A stretch of 64,000 nucleotides of DNA from the NCBI GenBank assembly GCA_013112575.1, contig JABFGG010000004.1, forward strand, positions 310,001-374,000. The letters are read 5' to 3'. Shown piece by piece: positions 18,766 to 24,872 of this stretch. Made by a program: the position numbers and the translations under genes. The notes beneath the pieces were generated by a model. It made no database searches. It was given only the letters and a program-made list of their open reading frames with translations, and was not told where the DNA came from. The DNA comes from Chloroflexota bacterium. GTDB taxonomy: Bacteria; Chloroflexota; Anaerolineae; Anaerolineales; UBA11579. Every line of letters begins with the position of its first letter. The stretch's first letter is position 1.

Positions 18766-20091
18766 ATGCTGCACATGCCCTGGCTCCGTCGTTATCATCT
18801 TCTTCGCAACTGGTTATGGGTCTTTGCTTTTATCCTGTTATTAGGGCCCAGTGCCCAGCCGCCAACTGATTCCTTTGAGCGTATCCGGGCTTACACGCGC
18901 CAGATAGAATTCGATTACATTGATTGGGGCCTGCGCGCTCTGGGATTGAAGATAGGGCAGGCTGCGCTAGGGGTGGAAACGTACATCTCCGAAGATGACA
19001 GCCATACTATCGTGATGGATTACCTCGATATGGTGGCGCGTATCCAGCAGGCTGAAGGGGACTTGCGCAGAATCTATACCGACCCCAATGTAGAAGATGT
19101 TGAAGCTGCTACAGCAGACCTGGGCGCTGAATTGGATGACCTGTACGCTCAACGCCAACGTCTAGGCCCCCTGGCCGAAGCAGTATTCCAGAGCCAACTC
19201 AGTGCCACGGTAAGTGACTTGGGGTTCACCCCCGGAGGACAACCCTTGCCGCCAGTGTTGTATCGCAGTACGCCATTGCCCTGGGCCTTGGTCGTGTCGC
19301 CCCGCGAGGTCATCCAACAGGAAGCCAACATCTCGCTTCAAGTGGAATTGAACGTAGAAGACCACGTGGTTTTGGAAGGGGATATTGAAGCCGGGCTGGA
19401 TATGTCCGCTCTGGTCGTGCCAGTGGGCGGTATCGGCTTCTATCCCACCATGATCGCCCAAACCACCAACCTCAACTGGATGAGTGAGGTGGTAGCACAT
19501 GAGTGGATCCACAATTTCCTGACCTTACGCCCCCTGGGTGTGCTTTATACTCAGTCTCCTGAGCTGCGCACCATCAATGAAACTGTCGCCAGCATCGCCG
19601 GGAAAGAGATCGGGGGCCAGCTTTTGTTGCGTTATTACCCCGAGTTCTACGTACCCCCTCCACCCCCTAGCCCTCCCCAAACAGGAAACGATGAGGCTCC
19701 ACCTGGACCTCCTCCGGAGCCGCCAGCCTTCGATTTCCGGGCTGAGATGCGGGAGACCCGTGAGACAGCCGATGAACTGCTGCTTGAGGGCCGCATTGAA
19801 GAAGCCGAAGAGTACATGGAGGCCCGCCGCCTGATATTCTGGGAGAATGGCTACCAGATCCGTAAACTCAACCAGGCTTATTTTGCTTTCTACGGGGCTT
19901 ATGCCGACCAGCCGGGCGGGGCCGCCGGCGAAGACCCTATTGGTGAGGCCGTCCGGCAGGTGTGGGCTGACAGTAATTCGGTCTTTGATTTTGTCAATAG
20001 CATGAGCTGGGTCACCAGCGTAGATGGTTTGATGCAATTGGCCTATGGGGAAGCTAATCTTCTAGATGAAGGGGTTGTATACTTAGGCTGA
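18766..20091 (+). CDS. membrane-anchored zincin-like metalloprotease, family unknown
   Basis: A 441-residue protein. An N-terminal helix (LLRNWLWVFAFILLLGPSA) anchors or exports it. A helical region (~35-135) is followed by a beta-rich part. VVAHEWIHNFL (~242-252) is a zinc-protease HExxH, and NETVASIAGKEIG about 25 residues later supplies a plausible third ligand Glu, as in gluzincins. A Pro-rich segment (~298-320) and a charged helical region (ELLLEGRIEEAEEYMEARR) follow. I do not recognise the family. The ATG at 18775 (MPWLRR) is an alternative start. It is divergent from the epimerase gene. Confidence 0.7.
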   Translation: MLHMPWLRRYHLLRNWLWVFAFILLLGPSAQPPTDSFERIRAYTRQIEFDYIDWGLRALGLKIGQAALGVETYISEDDSHTIVMDYLDMVARIQQAEGDLRRIYTDPNVEDVEAATADLGAELDDLYAQRQRLGPLAEAVFQSQLSATVSDLGFTPGGQPLPPVLYRSTPLPWALVVSPREVIQQEANISLQVELNVEDHVVLEGDIEAGLDMSALVVPVGGIGFYPTMIAQTTNLNWMSEVVAHEWIHNFLTLRPLGVLYTQSPELRTINETVASIAGKEIGGQLLLRYYPEFYVPPPPPSPPQTGNDEAPPGPPPEPPAFDFRAEMRETRETADELLLEGRIEEAEEYMEARRLIFWENGYQIRKLNQAYFAFYGAYADQPGGAAGEDPIGEAVRQVWADSNSVFDFVNSMSWVTSVDGLMQLAYGEANLLDEGVVYLG

Positions 20092-20787: not shown

Positions 20788-20873
20788 ACTAAAGGGGAGA
20801 TTCATCCGCTACTCATATCGCCTCTAAGCCTACTGGTACAATTCCCGCCTATATGCCAAATAAAGGAAATTAC

Positions 20874-22133
20874 ATGAAAAAGCCACAAATTCTCGGCTTT
20901 GCGCTGCTGGCCTTGCTGCTTGCGGCCTGCGGGGGGGCGACCACTGCTGCTCCCGAAGCAGAAGCTATTGAGCCAATTGTTGAAGAGGGTCCGGCTACTC
21001 CCATCACCAGCAAACTGGCCACCTGCTCGGCGGTCAGCTCCATTGACCTCACCGATGAAGAATCTCTTTTCCCGGAAGTTACGTCTGAGGATTGGATTCA
21101 CGGCCCTGAAGATGCCACTGTGACGATCGTGGAGTACGGCGACTTCCAGTGACCGGGCTGTGCAGCACTTGCGCCCGTGTTGGCGCAACTCGAAGCTGAT
21201 TTCCCGGATGACCTGCGTGTTATCTACCGTCACTTCCCACTGCTGACCACACCAGATGGTGAGGTCTTCCACGATAAGGCTGCCGAAGGTGTGCAGGCTG
21301 CTGAGGCCGCCGGGCTCCAGGGTAAATTCTGGGAGATGCACGACCTGCTCTTTGAAACGCAGTCCGAATGGTCCGGCTTTAGCGAAGAGGAATTCGTGAC
21401 CTGGGTCTTTGACCAGGCCGAAACCCTTGAATTGGATGTCGAGCAGTTTGAAGCAGATTACAACAGTGAAACTATTGCCGCTATCCCGCAAGAAGCCTAT
21501 GATTTTGCGATCGAGACCGGCATTCCCGGTACACCATTTTTGTTGATCGACGGGCGTATTTACAGCGGCCCGCGCGGTTACCTTAATTTATCCACGATCA
21601 TCGAATTGCAATTGCTGGCCCAGCGCCACTTCACCGAATGCCCCCCGATGACCGTGGATGCGACCAAAGAATATATTGCTACTATCGCCACGGAGAAAGG
21701 CGATGTGGTGGTGGAATTGTTCCCAGATGTAGCGCCTATCGCTGTCAACAGCTTTATCTTTTTAGCGGAAAATGATTGGTTTGATGGCGTCACCTTCCAT
21801 CGTGTGTTACCGGGGTTTGTCGCCCAGGCAGGTGACCCTACCGGCACAGGTGCTGGAGGACCCGGATATTTCTTCAGCATAGAGACTTCTTCGGCCCTGG
21901 GTTTTGACCGCGCTGGTTTGTTGGCTATGGCTAACTCTGGTCCTACGGCCAACGGCAGCCAGTTCTTTGTTACGATGGGGCCTGCCACTCACCTGAATGG
22001 TGGTTTCACCATATTTGGTGAGGTTCTTGAAGGGATGGAGGTGGTTGAAAGCCTGACGCCGCGTGATCCTGAACAAGAACCCTTTGCCGATCCGGGAGAT
22101 TTGATCGTGGATGTGACCGTGGAGGAGCGCTAA
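20874..22133 (+). CDS. putative selenoprotein: lipoprotein with DsbA-like thioredoxin and cyclophilin domains, TGA read as Sec93
   Basis: A 419-residue reading frame with one internal TGA (21150-21152). Signal peptide with lipobox LLAAC at ~20. A DsbA-like domain (~75-250) begins TVTIVEYGDFQ, where homologues continue C-P-x-C; here it continues TGA-P-G-C, making U93-P-G-C96. The rest of the fold is intact: VIYRHFPLL, AAGLQGKFWEMHDLLF, and cis-Pro loop GIPGTPF. A cyclophilin prolyl-isomerase domain (~262-419) follows with VTFHRVLPGF, QAGDPTG, GSQFFVTMG. A SECIS-like hairpin follows the TGA. The start at 20874 has AAAGGA upstream. A nonsense mutation is the alternative, but the Cys position and hairpin argue against it. 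Confidence 0.85.
21150..21188 (+). other. UGA selenocysteine codon and bacterial SECIS-like hairpin
   Basis: TGA at 21150-21152. The stem TTGCGCC (21169-21175) pairs perfectly with GGCGCAA (21182-21188), closing the 6-base loop CGTGTT. The loop starts 23 bases after the TGA and has G as its second base. This fits the known bacterial SECIS rule: a short stem-loop 16-37 bases after UGA with a G in the first two loop positions. Selenocysteine insertion would need SelB and tRNA-Sec, which are not in this window. Confidence 0.8.
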
Positions 22134-22139
22134 ACAGCA

Positions 22140-23399
22140 ATGACGAGTAGCGAAACAGTTCAAGACAAGCAGATCCATTGGCCGTCTGTGTTTCAGTTTG
22201 GCTTGGCGGGCCTGGCTTCAGCAGGTTTGTTGACCATTGCAGGCTCTATGTTCTTCGCAGGCTTGCTCCAATTTATTGACCCGAGCAGTGCGGGGCCTGC
22301 GGCGGCTGCCACAACCATGATGGTCGCCGCAGGCATGGCGACGGGCGGGTTGTTGGCGTTGCCAGTAGCCGCCTATGGCTTGGCGCGCGTCCTGGGTAGC
22401 AACTTGCCATTGCCCAATAAATTGCCCAGTTGGTGGCGTTGGGTCATACTGGTTAGCTTGGTCGTCTTTGTGTTCGTCGTGTTGATCGGTTTCCTGGTCT
22501 CAAGTGTGGAGGCTGTGGCCTGGTTGGCGCTGCCGCCTCTGCATGTCCTAGGGATGAGCCTACCAGTGTTGTGGCTGGTTTGGATCGGCACACGTAAATT
22601 GATCGGCGGTTCGGCCCAACGCAGCTGGGGCGTCTTTGGGGCGGGCCTTGTCATGGGGCCTTTCTTTATCCTGATCCTGGAACTAGCGCTGATGGTGCTA
22701 CTCTTCCTGATGGCCTTTTTTGTGCTCATCTTTGTGGCCGCCGCCAACCCAGAGATCGTGACCACGCTGGATAGACTCGCAATACAGCTGCAGACGCTCC
22801 CCAGTGACTCGCGACGTGCACAGGTGCTCCTCGGCCCTTATATCCTCAGGCCAGAATTGTTGTTGGGTTCTCTGTTCTTTATTGCAGTCTGTGTACCACT
22901 GATCGAGGAAGCCTTGAAGCCCATCGGGGTCTGGCTGCTGGCAGGCAGGAAGCTGACCCCGCGCGATGGCCTGGCCCTGGGGATGCTGAGTGGGGCGGGC
23001 TATGCCCTGTTCGAGAACCTTTTGCAGGGCGCTATGCCAGAAGCCTGGCCGACCCTGGCTATTGTGCGCATCGGCACCAGTGTGATGCACATCTTTACCG
23101 CGGGGCTAACAGGTTGGGGGCTGGCCCTGGCCTGGCGGGAACGCAGCTATTTAAAGTTGGGGCTGGCTTATTTCCTGGCTTCCCTGATCCACGGATTGTG
23201 GAATGCCAACGCCATCATTTTCTCATTCACCATGCTCTCACTGGAAATTGATGGCCCGTTAGATTTGCCTATCTTCTGGGTGGCTGCGGCTCCCGCGACA
23301 CTAATTGTGTTGGCCCTTGGGACCCTGGGAGGCTTGCTCTTTGCAAATCGAAGATTGCGGGAGCCCGAAGTCGAAGTAGAAGTAGAGCCTGCTGCTTAA
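22140..23399 (+). CDS. PrsW-like intramembrane protease
   Basis: A 419-residue protein with about nine helices. The PrsW signature is visible: VPLIEEALKPIGVWLL with the Glu-Glu pair, GAGYALFENLLQ, SVMHIFTAGLTGWGLA with His, and ASLIHGLWNANAI with the second His. PrsW cleaves anti-sigma factors in site-1 proteolysis in Bacillus; targets here are unknown. It starts 6 bases after the putative selenoprotein, so the two are co-transcribed, which hints at an envelope-stress or protein-quality link. A 28-base palindrome follows its stop. Confidence 0.85.
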   Translation: MTSSETVQDKQIHWPSVFQFGLAGLASAGLLTIAGSMFFAGLLQFIDPSSAGPAAAATTMMVAAGMATGGLLALPVAAYGLARVLGSNLPLPNKLPSWWRWVILVSLVVFVFVVLIGFLVSSVEAVAWLALPPLHVLGMSLPVLWLVWIGTRKLIGGSAQRSWGVFGAGLVMGPFFILILELALMVLLFLMAFFVLIFVAAANPEIVTTLDRLAIQLQTLPSDSRRAQVLLGPYILRPELLLGSLFFIAVCVPLIEEALKPIGVWLLAGRKLTPRDGLALGMLSGAGYALFENLLQGAMPEAWPTLAIVRIGTSVMHIFTAGLTGWGLALAWRERSYLKLGLAYFLASLIHGLWNANAIIFSFTMLSLEIDGPLDLPIFWVAAAPATLIVLALGTLGGLLFANRRLREPEVEVEVEPAA

Positions 23400-23450: not shown

Positions 23451-24872
23451 CTAGTTAATCGGGGTTATCGTGATACGGATAACGTTTTCGGGGTAATCAA
23501 AGCCATCGGCAACTAACACAACAGAGCCACCTTCATCTGCACCGGTATTCGGGCCAGCCTGTCGCGGGGCCTGGTCAATGCCAAAGCCAGGCAACTGGTT
23601 GACTTCCGTGCCCGCGTCCCACAGCAAGAAGAGGTCAGTGACATCGCCGCTGATCGCTTCGCCGTTCTCATCGAAGAGCGAGATGCCAGACTCTGCCGGA
23701 GCATAGAAGAGGTCATTGGACTGCACCAGCATGGTCGCCAGGGAGAGATAGTAATCTGCTGAGGCCGTCACCACGAACTCGTAGGCATTGCCGGGGGTCA
23801 GCGGGCCGGGGCCATCTGCGCCTGCGGGGGTGTTGAACACGCCCAGCGAAACCACACCCATGTAATCCTGCGTAGCGTCGGCCAGGCCGGAAGGATCGCC
23901 GTCTTCGGCCAGGGCTTCCAGCCCATCGCCGCGGTCAGCTTCACCCTCGGTGAAGAACACGCCGGGTTCTGTGTGGATGGCCCAAACGCCGGGGGCCAAC
24001 AACACGGTCACGCCACTGCGAGCAGTCAGGGCCTCACCCAATCCGGCGGGGTTGCCGTCTTCGGCCAGGGCTTCCAGACCCTCGCCGCGGTCAGCCTCAC
24101 CAGCTGTGAAGAGCGCGCCGGGTTCAGTGTGTACTACCCACACGCCGGGGGCCAACAGTAGGGACTCGTCGCTGGAGATGTTCTCGACACGTGCACTGAA
24201 CTGGTTCTCGCCTGTATTCTCGATGCTCACCAGGATGTTGTCGCTGACTGCCGGGTAGCTAAAGCCATCATCCACCAGTTGCACCACACCGTCTTCGGCT
24301 TCACCAGTGTCCGGGCCAGCCTGCCGCGGGGCCTGGTCTGCGCCTGCGCCGGGTTCCTGGTTGACCTCGGTGCCGACGTCCCATAGGGCGATCTGGTCAG
24401 TCACGTCACCACTGATGGGGCTGCCATCTTCGCCATACAGCGCAATACCCGTTTCATCAGGAGCATAGAAGAGGTCGTTGGACTGCACGAACATGGTGGC
24501 AAAGGACAGGGACTGGCCGGGGGCCGCATTGAAGTCGAAGGTGTAAGCCGCGCCGGGGGCCAATGGGCCGGGCTCACTGGCTTCACTGGGGGTGTTGAAC
24601 ACGCCACTGCCTGCGAATTCAAAAGCGTCCGAGATATTCTCGATGCGGACGGTGAAATCGAGGTGGGGAGCCATATCATCCATGGAGTCCTCTTCCATCA
24701 TTTCATCGTCCATCATCTCGTCTTCGGACATTTCATCTTCAGCCATTTCCTCATCCATGGCTTCTTCAGCCATCGATTCTTCGGTTGGGGCTTCCGGGGT
24801 AGGAGTGGCCCCGCAAGCGGCCAGCAAAAAAGCTACCAGCACACCTGCAATAAGGATCTGATTGCGAAACAT
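23451..24872 (-). CDS. spondin-domain lipoprotein
   Basis: A 473-residue lipoprotein (lipobox LLAAC, Cys ~20). A Met/Asp/Glu-rich linker (~30-68) precedes two spondin_N-like domains. Each has the pattern F-x-V-x-I-E-N-I-S, SFATMFVQSNDLFYAP, and AISGDVTDLFLLWDAGTEVN. Between them a segment with APGVWVVHTEPGALFT and GLEALAEDGNP occurs twice in tandem. Spondin_N domains in bacteria are secreted and of unknown binding partner. AAGGAGG lies 7 bases before the ATG. Phased CTTACA repeats upstream suggest control by the divergent two-component system. Confidence 0.85.
   Translation of the reverse strand: MFRNQILIAGVLVAFLLAACGATPTPEAPTEESMAEEAMDEEMAEDEMSEDEMMDDEMMEEDSMDDMAPHLDFTVRIENISDAFEFAGSGVFNTPSEASEPGPLAPGAAYTFDFNAAPGQSLSFATMFVQSNDLFYAPDETGIALYGEDGSPISGDVTDQIALWDVGTEVNQEPGAGADQAPRQAGPDTGEAEDGVVQLVDDGFSYPAVSDNILVSIENTGENQFSARVENISSDESLLLAPGVWVVHTEPGALFTAGEADRGEGLEALAEDGNPAGLGEALTARSGVTVLLAPGVWAIHTEPGVFFTEGEADRGDGLEALAEDGDPSGLADATQDYMGVVSLGVFNTPAGADGPGPLTPGNAYEFVVTASADYYLSLATMLVQSNDLFYAPAESGISLFDENGEAISGDVTDLFLLWDAGTEVNQLPGFGIDQAPRQAGPNTGADEGGSVVLVADGFDYPENVIRITITPIN

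Follow-up and report, generated by a model that had tools for sequence, protein, structure and literature searches.

A predicted selenocysteine-containing DsbA-cyclophilin fusion lipoprotein in Anaerolineales of the phylum Chloroflexota

A gene encoding a DsbA-like thioredoxin domain fused to a cyclophilin domain lies in the window analysed here, a stretch of 64,000 nucleotides from a Chloroflexota bacterium of the order Anaerolineales (GenBank assembly GCA_013112575.1, contig JABFGG010000004.1, positions 310,001 to 374,000). Its reading frame is interrupted at codon 93 by one TGA, and comparison with related sequences indicates that this codon is decoded as selenocysteine (Sec), which makes the product almost certainly a selenoprotein. 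The gene thus adds to the known selenoproteins a well-supported member which the standard code breaks into two open reading frames (20853-21152 and 21177-22133). The features to which we refer below are as follows.

18766..20091, + strand: upstream neighbour, metalloprotease-like (HEWIH...NETVA) and predicted to be exported, without a Pfam family match
20863..20867, + strand: AAGGA as read in the sequence, probable ribosome-binding site
20874..22133, + strand: coding sequence of the predicted DsbA-cyclophilin selenolipoprotein, 419 residues, Sec being residue 93
20874..20930, + strand: putative signal peptide ending in ...LLLAAC (Cys19), read by eye
21090..21605, + strand: DsbA-like thioredoxin domain, residues 73-244 (Pfam Thioredoxin_4 and DSBA)
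21150..21152, + strand: TGA as predicted selenocysteine codon, U93 of U-P-G-C, a codon common to all 37 TGA-bearing copies
21169..21188, + strand: predicted SECIS hairpin, stem 21169-21175 with 21182-21188, loop CGTGTT at 21176-21181
21681..22076, + strand: cyclophilin-type peptidyl-prolyl isomerase domain, residues 270-401 (Pfam Pro_isomerase)
22140..23399, + strand: downstream neighbour, PrsW-family membrane protease (63.3 bits, cut-off 23.5)

The in-frame TGA and the hairpin that follows it

An earlier sequence-only reading of this DNA had described the frame from 20874 to 22133 as open apart from the TGA at 21150, and had placed this TGA at the first Cys of the DsbA C-P-x-C motif. Both statements hold: in translation the TGA is the sole interruption (...VEYGDFQ-U-PGC-AALAPVLAQ...), and the resulting U-P-G-C lies inside the Pfam thioredoxin/DsbA domain. 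The ATG at 20874 is preceded by AAGGA, and an alternative in-frame ATG is present upstream at 20853. No tRNA genes were found within the window, and a megablast comparison with plasmids, as a check for mobile origin, gave 0 matches.

We searched 301 genomes of the order with the protein (E<=0.001) and obtained some match in 299, many of these matches being single-domain. The copies analysed were 92 from 90 loci, namely 37 flagged for a TGA among the matches listed and a selection of 55 others. In the column of codon 93, TGA is present in 37 copies, TGC or TGT in 50, and an Ala, Thr or Ser codon in five. All 37 TGA-bearing copies place their single TGA exactly at this codon, and the aligned parts of the 92 copies are otherwise free of stops. 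Decay of the gene, which the earlier reading had considered unlikely, is indeed difficult to reconcile with a TGA common to 37 genomes, and the Cys-containing homologues that it expected do exist, next to the five copies with neither Cys nor Sec. In these five (the second copy of L068, L102, L103, L105 and L106) the catalytic role may have been lost or changed. One locus, L067 (G300:C20:14409-17294), carries a Sec and a Cys fusion copy in tandem. Two further records, L111 and L112, likewise encode Sec and have the CGTG hairpin; judging by length, their contigs are those of L037 and L039.

The hairpin downstream of the TGA (TTGCGCC-CGTGTT-GGCGCAA) consists of seven perfect pairs and a six-base loop with G as its second base, just as had been claimed. 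The claimed distance of 23 bases, on the other hand, applies to the loop only, as the stem begins 16 nt after the TGA. A guanosine in the small apical loop, named as a criterion for bacterial SECIS elements in PMC1088965, is present. When both strands of the window were scanned for a TGA that has, 10-38 nt further on, a stem of at least five pairs with a loop starting CGTG (this loop being taken post hoc from the homologues), nine places were found, and at this site only were there long open frames on both sides (119 and 326 open codons, the next best place having 33 and 15).

Assignment of the hairpin as a SECIS element is borne out by its conservation and by compensatory changes in the Sec copies. 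The loop starts with CGTG in all 37 of them, in comparison to a mean of 5.1 and a maximum of 13 upon synonymous-codon shuffling. The stem is complete in 27 copies, has six of seven pairs in nine and five in one, so that the Sec copies pair at 6.70 of the seven positions, whereas 2000 shuffles gave a mean of 4.26 and a maximum of 4.78. The hairpin is largely missing from the 50 Cys copies: CGTG occurs in four, close to the shuffle mean of 3.3, and 3.44 of seven positions pair (shuffle mean 2.99, maximum 3.38), a slight excess which would fit SECIS remnants in some of them. With the tandem copy L067a omitted, RNAalifold returned for the other 36 Sec copies, unprompted, exactly the stem 21169-21175/21182-21188. 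In the covariation analysis 95.6% of the cells were paired. Compensatory changes were found at three of the seven stem pairs, a number reached in 8 of 500 shuffles, and the covariation score was 0.196, with values of at most 0.044 in slid controls and none of 500 shuffles as high. Out of five pair-count measures, the number of further pair types was the sole one without excess (6 versus a shuffle mean of 5.1; 136 of 500 shuffles as high).

The minimum-energy fold of the isolated 48 nt starting from the TGA is an alternative structure (-17.3 kcal/mol) and not the hairpin (-11.1 kcal/mol). The hairpin appears in the minimum-energy fold once the first 12 nt (the TGA and the next nine) are omitted, on the assumption that these nucleotides are covered by the ribosome.

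Selenocysteine machinery and other explanations for the TGA

If the TGA encodes Sec, the organism should carry selA, selB, selC and selD, as had been predicted, and all of them were found in the draft assembly of this genome (5.13 Mb, 44 contigs). The tRNA-Sec, with anticodon TCA, scored 70.9 bits, which is over the Rfam cut-off; the scores were 374.5 bits for selB (cut-off 242.25), 541.9 for selA (cut-off 267.9) and 360.3 for selD (cut-off 125). The selD gene (L018, G000:C9:50505-51437) itself contains a single in-frame TGA (...KCAGUASK...), which is followed by strong hairpins.

We then compared the 37 Sec genomes with the 49 genomes that yielded Cys copies alone, reading the table entries by eye. 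Matches to selB were counted at E<1e-70, as a proxy for the curated cut-off, weaker ones being taken as other elongation factors; for tRNA-Sec the limit was E<2e-11, so as to include G169 (1.1e-11) among the positives, and matches near E=1e-9 were regarded as doubtful. Genomes not among the matches listed for selB or tRNA-Sec were scored as lacking it, and the tests ignore kinship of the genomes. Under these rules, selB was detected in 32/37 Sec and 31/49 Cys genomes (p=0.026), tRNA-Sec in 32/37 and 30/49 (p=0.014), and at least one of the two in 37/37 and 33/49 (Fisher p = 4e-5), while presence of both did not differ significantly (27/37 versus 28/49, p=0.17). Sec copies are thus confined to genomes in which selB and/or tRNA-Sec was detected, and Cys copies occur with and without the machinery; the counts in the latter genomes mean that Cys copies are also found in Sec-capable hosts.

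Five of the 37 Sec genomes had no selB over the cut-off, another five no convincing tRNA-Sec, and none lacked both. Assembly completeness is 63-86% for eight of these ten; the remaining two, G014 (95) and G007 (97), are among those without a convincing tRNA-Sec. A closer search of G007, G014, G123, G149 and G207 found no convincing tRNA-Sec, and ARAGORN did not report one at the doubtful match in G007. In genus g58, three genomes (G092:C112, G150:C22 and G182:C62) have the tRNA-Sec gene and the Sec fusion gene no more than about 1 kb apart.

It could be argued that the TGA is a nonsense mutation or a sequencing error in an ordinary Cys-type DsbA-cyclophilin gene, given that the assembly is a draft in 44 contigs and that 50 of the 92 copies have Cys at this very site. 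Against this, exactly the same codon is TGA in 36 other genomes, the aligned parts contain no further stop, and the hairpin covaries. Because 37 genomes carry the same TGA, a sequencing error is untenable, and we rejected both error and decay, the chance of either being negligible. A different possibility is that the TGA is read as Trp or Cys without selenium, through a change of code or near-cognate read-through; after all, the gene is open whatever residue the TGA encodes. This we consider very improbable, and a code change was rejected, as in-frame TGA is limited to one catalytic codon, the genome has the Sec machinery, and the hairpin is kept in TGA copies but largely not in Cys copies.

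One may also suppose that the main product is the truncated peptide of 92 residues, with read-through acting as a minor, selenium-dependent switch. In bacteria, read-through at UGA is as a rule incomplete, which speaks for such a scenario, as does the fact that the hairpin is not the minimum-energy structure of the 48-nt segment beginning with the TGA. However, the protein downstream of the TGA is well conserved in the Sec copies, and this scenario seems improbable, if somewhat less so than the two discussed above. Decoding of codon 93 as Sec, giving a full-length selenoprotein, is the reading that we retain.

Domain architecture, relatives and proposed function

The earlier reading had called the product a DsbA-like lipoprotein. 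The DsbA part of this description stands, with 69.9 bits to Thioredoxin_4 (PF13462; cut-off 23.2) and 50.5 bits to DSBA (PF01323; cut-off 25.6), but a C-terminal cyclophilin domain had been overlooked: Pro_isomerase (PF00160) scores 130.7 bits (cut-off 21.7) with profile positions 3-144 of 159 covered, and the protein is a DsbA-cyclophilin fusion. Cys19 near the N-terminus is invariant in the 16 rows of alignment A2 and nearly so in alignment A3 (13 rows), and the motif ending in it, LLLAAC, judged by eye, is what we take to be a lipobox. The active-site motif is U93-P-G-C96, and T220-P221 is invariant across the 16 rows of A2, Pro221 presumably being the cis-Pro of the DsbA-like fold.

In an AlphaFold2 model built with 13 sequences (mean pLDDT 82.5, pTM 0.68), Sec93 is located immediately before helix 94-109. 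Among the 50 Foldseek matches listed there were cyclophilins and large complexes, of which most were spliceosomes and one was axonemal, and none was described as DsbA; we thus compared the DsbA half by sequence instead. By sequence the cyclophilin half matched solved cyclophilins, which resemble the C-terminal domain, whereas in the fusion this domain is joined to a Sec-containing thioredoxin fold. The DsbA half shares its domain with the BdbD/DsbA oxidases, the best solved relative being BdbD (E=3.8e-11; PDB 3eu3 and others), which has Cys at the residue aligned with Sec93 and whose 3eu3 chain, at 202 residues, is without a cyclophilin domain.

Selenium enzymes of this broad kind have been described before, the Sec fusion being a two-domain variant of them. 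DsbA-like and DsbG-like selenoproteins were reported in PMC1794560, PMC1088965 and PMC9312934, and PMC1794560 gives three selenoproteins for Chloroflexi. The DsbA-like UxxC selenoproteins of these papers and of a 2026 review (PMC13188914) have in common with the fusion the DSBA domain and Sec in the first position of the motif. The best NCBIfam match, over residues 10-244, is NF041057, which by its title (Rcas_1661 family thioredoxin-like (seleno)lipoprotein) is a similar protein. However, the score is 77.9 bits versus a curated equivalog cut-off of 190, and the match to this 247-position model stops before the cyclophilin domain, so the fusion is a relative of NF041057 and not a member. The review enters NF041057 as 'DsbG-like protein, UxxC', along with two DsbA-like forms. 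The words 'cyclophilin' and 'peptidyl-prolyl' are absent from PMC1088965 and from the main text of PMC13188914, as are 'Chloroflexota' and 'Chloroflexi' from the latter text, and 'isomerase' is absent from PMC1794560. We found no description of a Sec DsbA-cyclophilin fusion in titles and abstract openings of the open-licence papers retrieved, nor any open-licence paper with Rcas_1661 as a term.

We propose that SelB, together with Sec-tRNA-Sec, would bind the CGTG-loop hairpin just 3' of the UGA, resulting in Sec insertion and not in termination, a step well supported by sequence. The mature protein would then be a membrane-anchored extracytoplasmic lipoprotein, with a DsbA-type thioredoxin domain bearing Sec first (U-P-G-C), followed by the cyclophilin prolyl isomerase. 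Most likely, it would catalyse disulfide formation or isomerisation as well as prolyl isomerisation in exported proteins, perhaps being recycled by a VKOR-type oxidase, for which the genome has two matches over the cut-off. Such a folding role of the selenoprotein is, in our opinion, probable, and would suggest a part for selenium chemistry in extracytoplasmic protein folding.

Assuming that the protein is a selenoprotein, its role could still be that of a reductase, or of an enzyme scavenging peroxides or disulfides. Sec in the attacking position often serves reductive chemistry, and in-frame TGA also occurs in ResA-like and U-x-x-U thioredoxin genes of this genome, which fits this alternative. 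On the other hand, the domain is of the DsbA/BdbD type with BdbD as best solved relative, a cyclophilin is fused to it, and a VKOR is present, and hence we regard a reductive role as rather unlikely, though well worth bearing in mind. The choice between oxidase, isomerase and reductase activity is not decided by sequence.

The genes on both sides of the fusion are consistent with an extracytoplasmic role in protein folding and quality control. A homologue of the upstream protein is present in at least 28 of 41 loci, with HExxH...NExxA in 26 of those 28, and a homologue of the downstream PrsW protein in at least 22 of 41; the 41 loci include three duplicates of others, and the counts are lower bounds because the flanks are short. 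It is the HExxH motif that suggests a protease role for the upstream neighbour. Further downstream, the window encodes a spondin-domain protein on the minus strand (23451-24872; 255.2 bits to NF038123).

Gain and loss of Sec, and further selenoprotein candidates

A quick tree of the 92 rows, with the active-site stretch masked and many weak branches, shows Sec scattered, in such a way that gain and loss are not separable on it. The best tree requires 17 changes between Sec and non-Sec, versus a mean of 29.1 upon shuffling, and well-supported branches force at least seven. As the SECIS element is conserved within the order, we favour one old Sec form followed by many losses there. The Cys copy L033 (G019:C7) retains the full hairpin (TTGCGCC-CGTGCT-GGCGCAG) and is best read as an apparently recent Sec-to-Cys reversion with a fossil SECIS; its genome has tRNA-Sec and no selB over the cut-off.

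Five further copies (L225, L226, L227, L116 and L121) have TGA at the equivalent of codon 93 and, in 5/5, a different predicted hairpin with a GGT loop 38 nt after the TGA. The first three come from other orders of the class, and tRNA-Sec is present in all three of their genomes (G492, G554 and G477); L116 and L121 are from further assemblies from elsewhere. These GGT-loop copies apparently represent either a SECIS switch or an independent gain of Sec. Repeated changes between Sec and non-Sec in one order, a fossil SECIS and an apparent SECIS switch make the fusion family suitable for studying selenocysteine gain and loss.

More broadly, we tentatively suggest that Anaerolineae may possess a selenium-based extracytoplasmic thiol-disulfide system, in which the Sec DsbA-cyclophilin fusion would work with other thioredoxin-fold selenoproteins, among them a thioredoxin lipoprotein with U-x-x-U, possibly a diselenide. 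In this scenario, different lineages would specify the one Sec codon of the fusion through two dissimilar SECIS hairpins (CGTG loop 23 nt and GGT loop 38 nt after UGA), reflecting independent Cys-to-Sec gains or SECIS replacement under constant Sec use. This broader picture is a serious possibility, held with less confidence than the folding role.

Apart from the fusion, the genome of the window contains other thioredoxin-fold selenoprotein candidates (L197, L193, L206 and L224). L197 is a second DsbA-like gene, with an in-frame TGA in U-P-F-C (motif at locus position 1573) and 135 bits to NF041057, under the cut-off of 190. L193 (contig C6, minus strand, locus position 1123) is a ResA/TlpA-like gene with its TGA in HSW-U-PVC, and it adjoins the gene of a thioredoxin-like lipoprotein in which both Cys codons are replaced by TGA (U-x-x-U). 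Copies of this kind are L206 (G000:C6:1321-1704) and L207-L219. The U-x-x-U protein gave 19 matches, spread over 18 of the 301 genomes searched, 14 with TGA at both positions and five at the first alone; CGTG is found at the corresponding downstream place in 17 of the 19, and at the tip of an RNAfold hairpin, judged by eye, in 15. A CGTG loop common to this gene and the fusion is as expected if one SelB reads both. PMC13188914 gives UxxU for Prx-like, metal-binding (putative mercuric reductase) and FmdB families and Trx as UxxC, and the U-x-x-U lipoprotein is possibly an undescribed diselenide-type thioredoxin. Finally, L224 (G000:C8:118600-118911) is thioredoxin-like as well, has its TGA in W-U-PSC and carries a CGTG hairpin.
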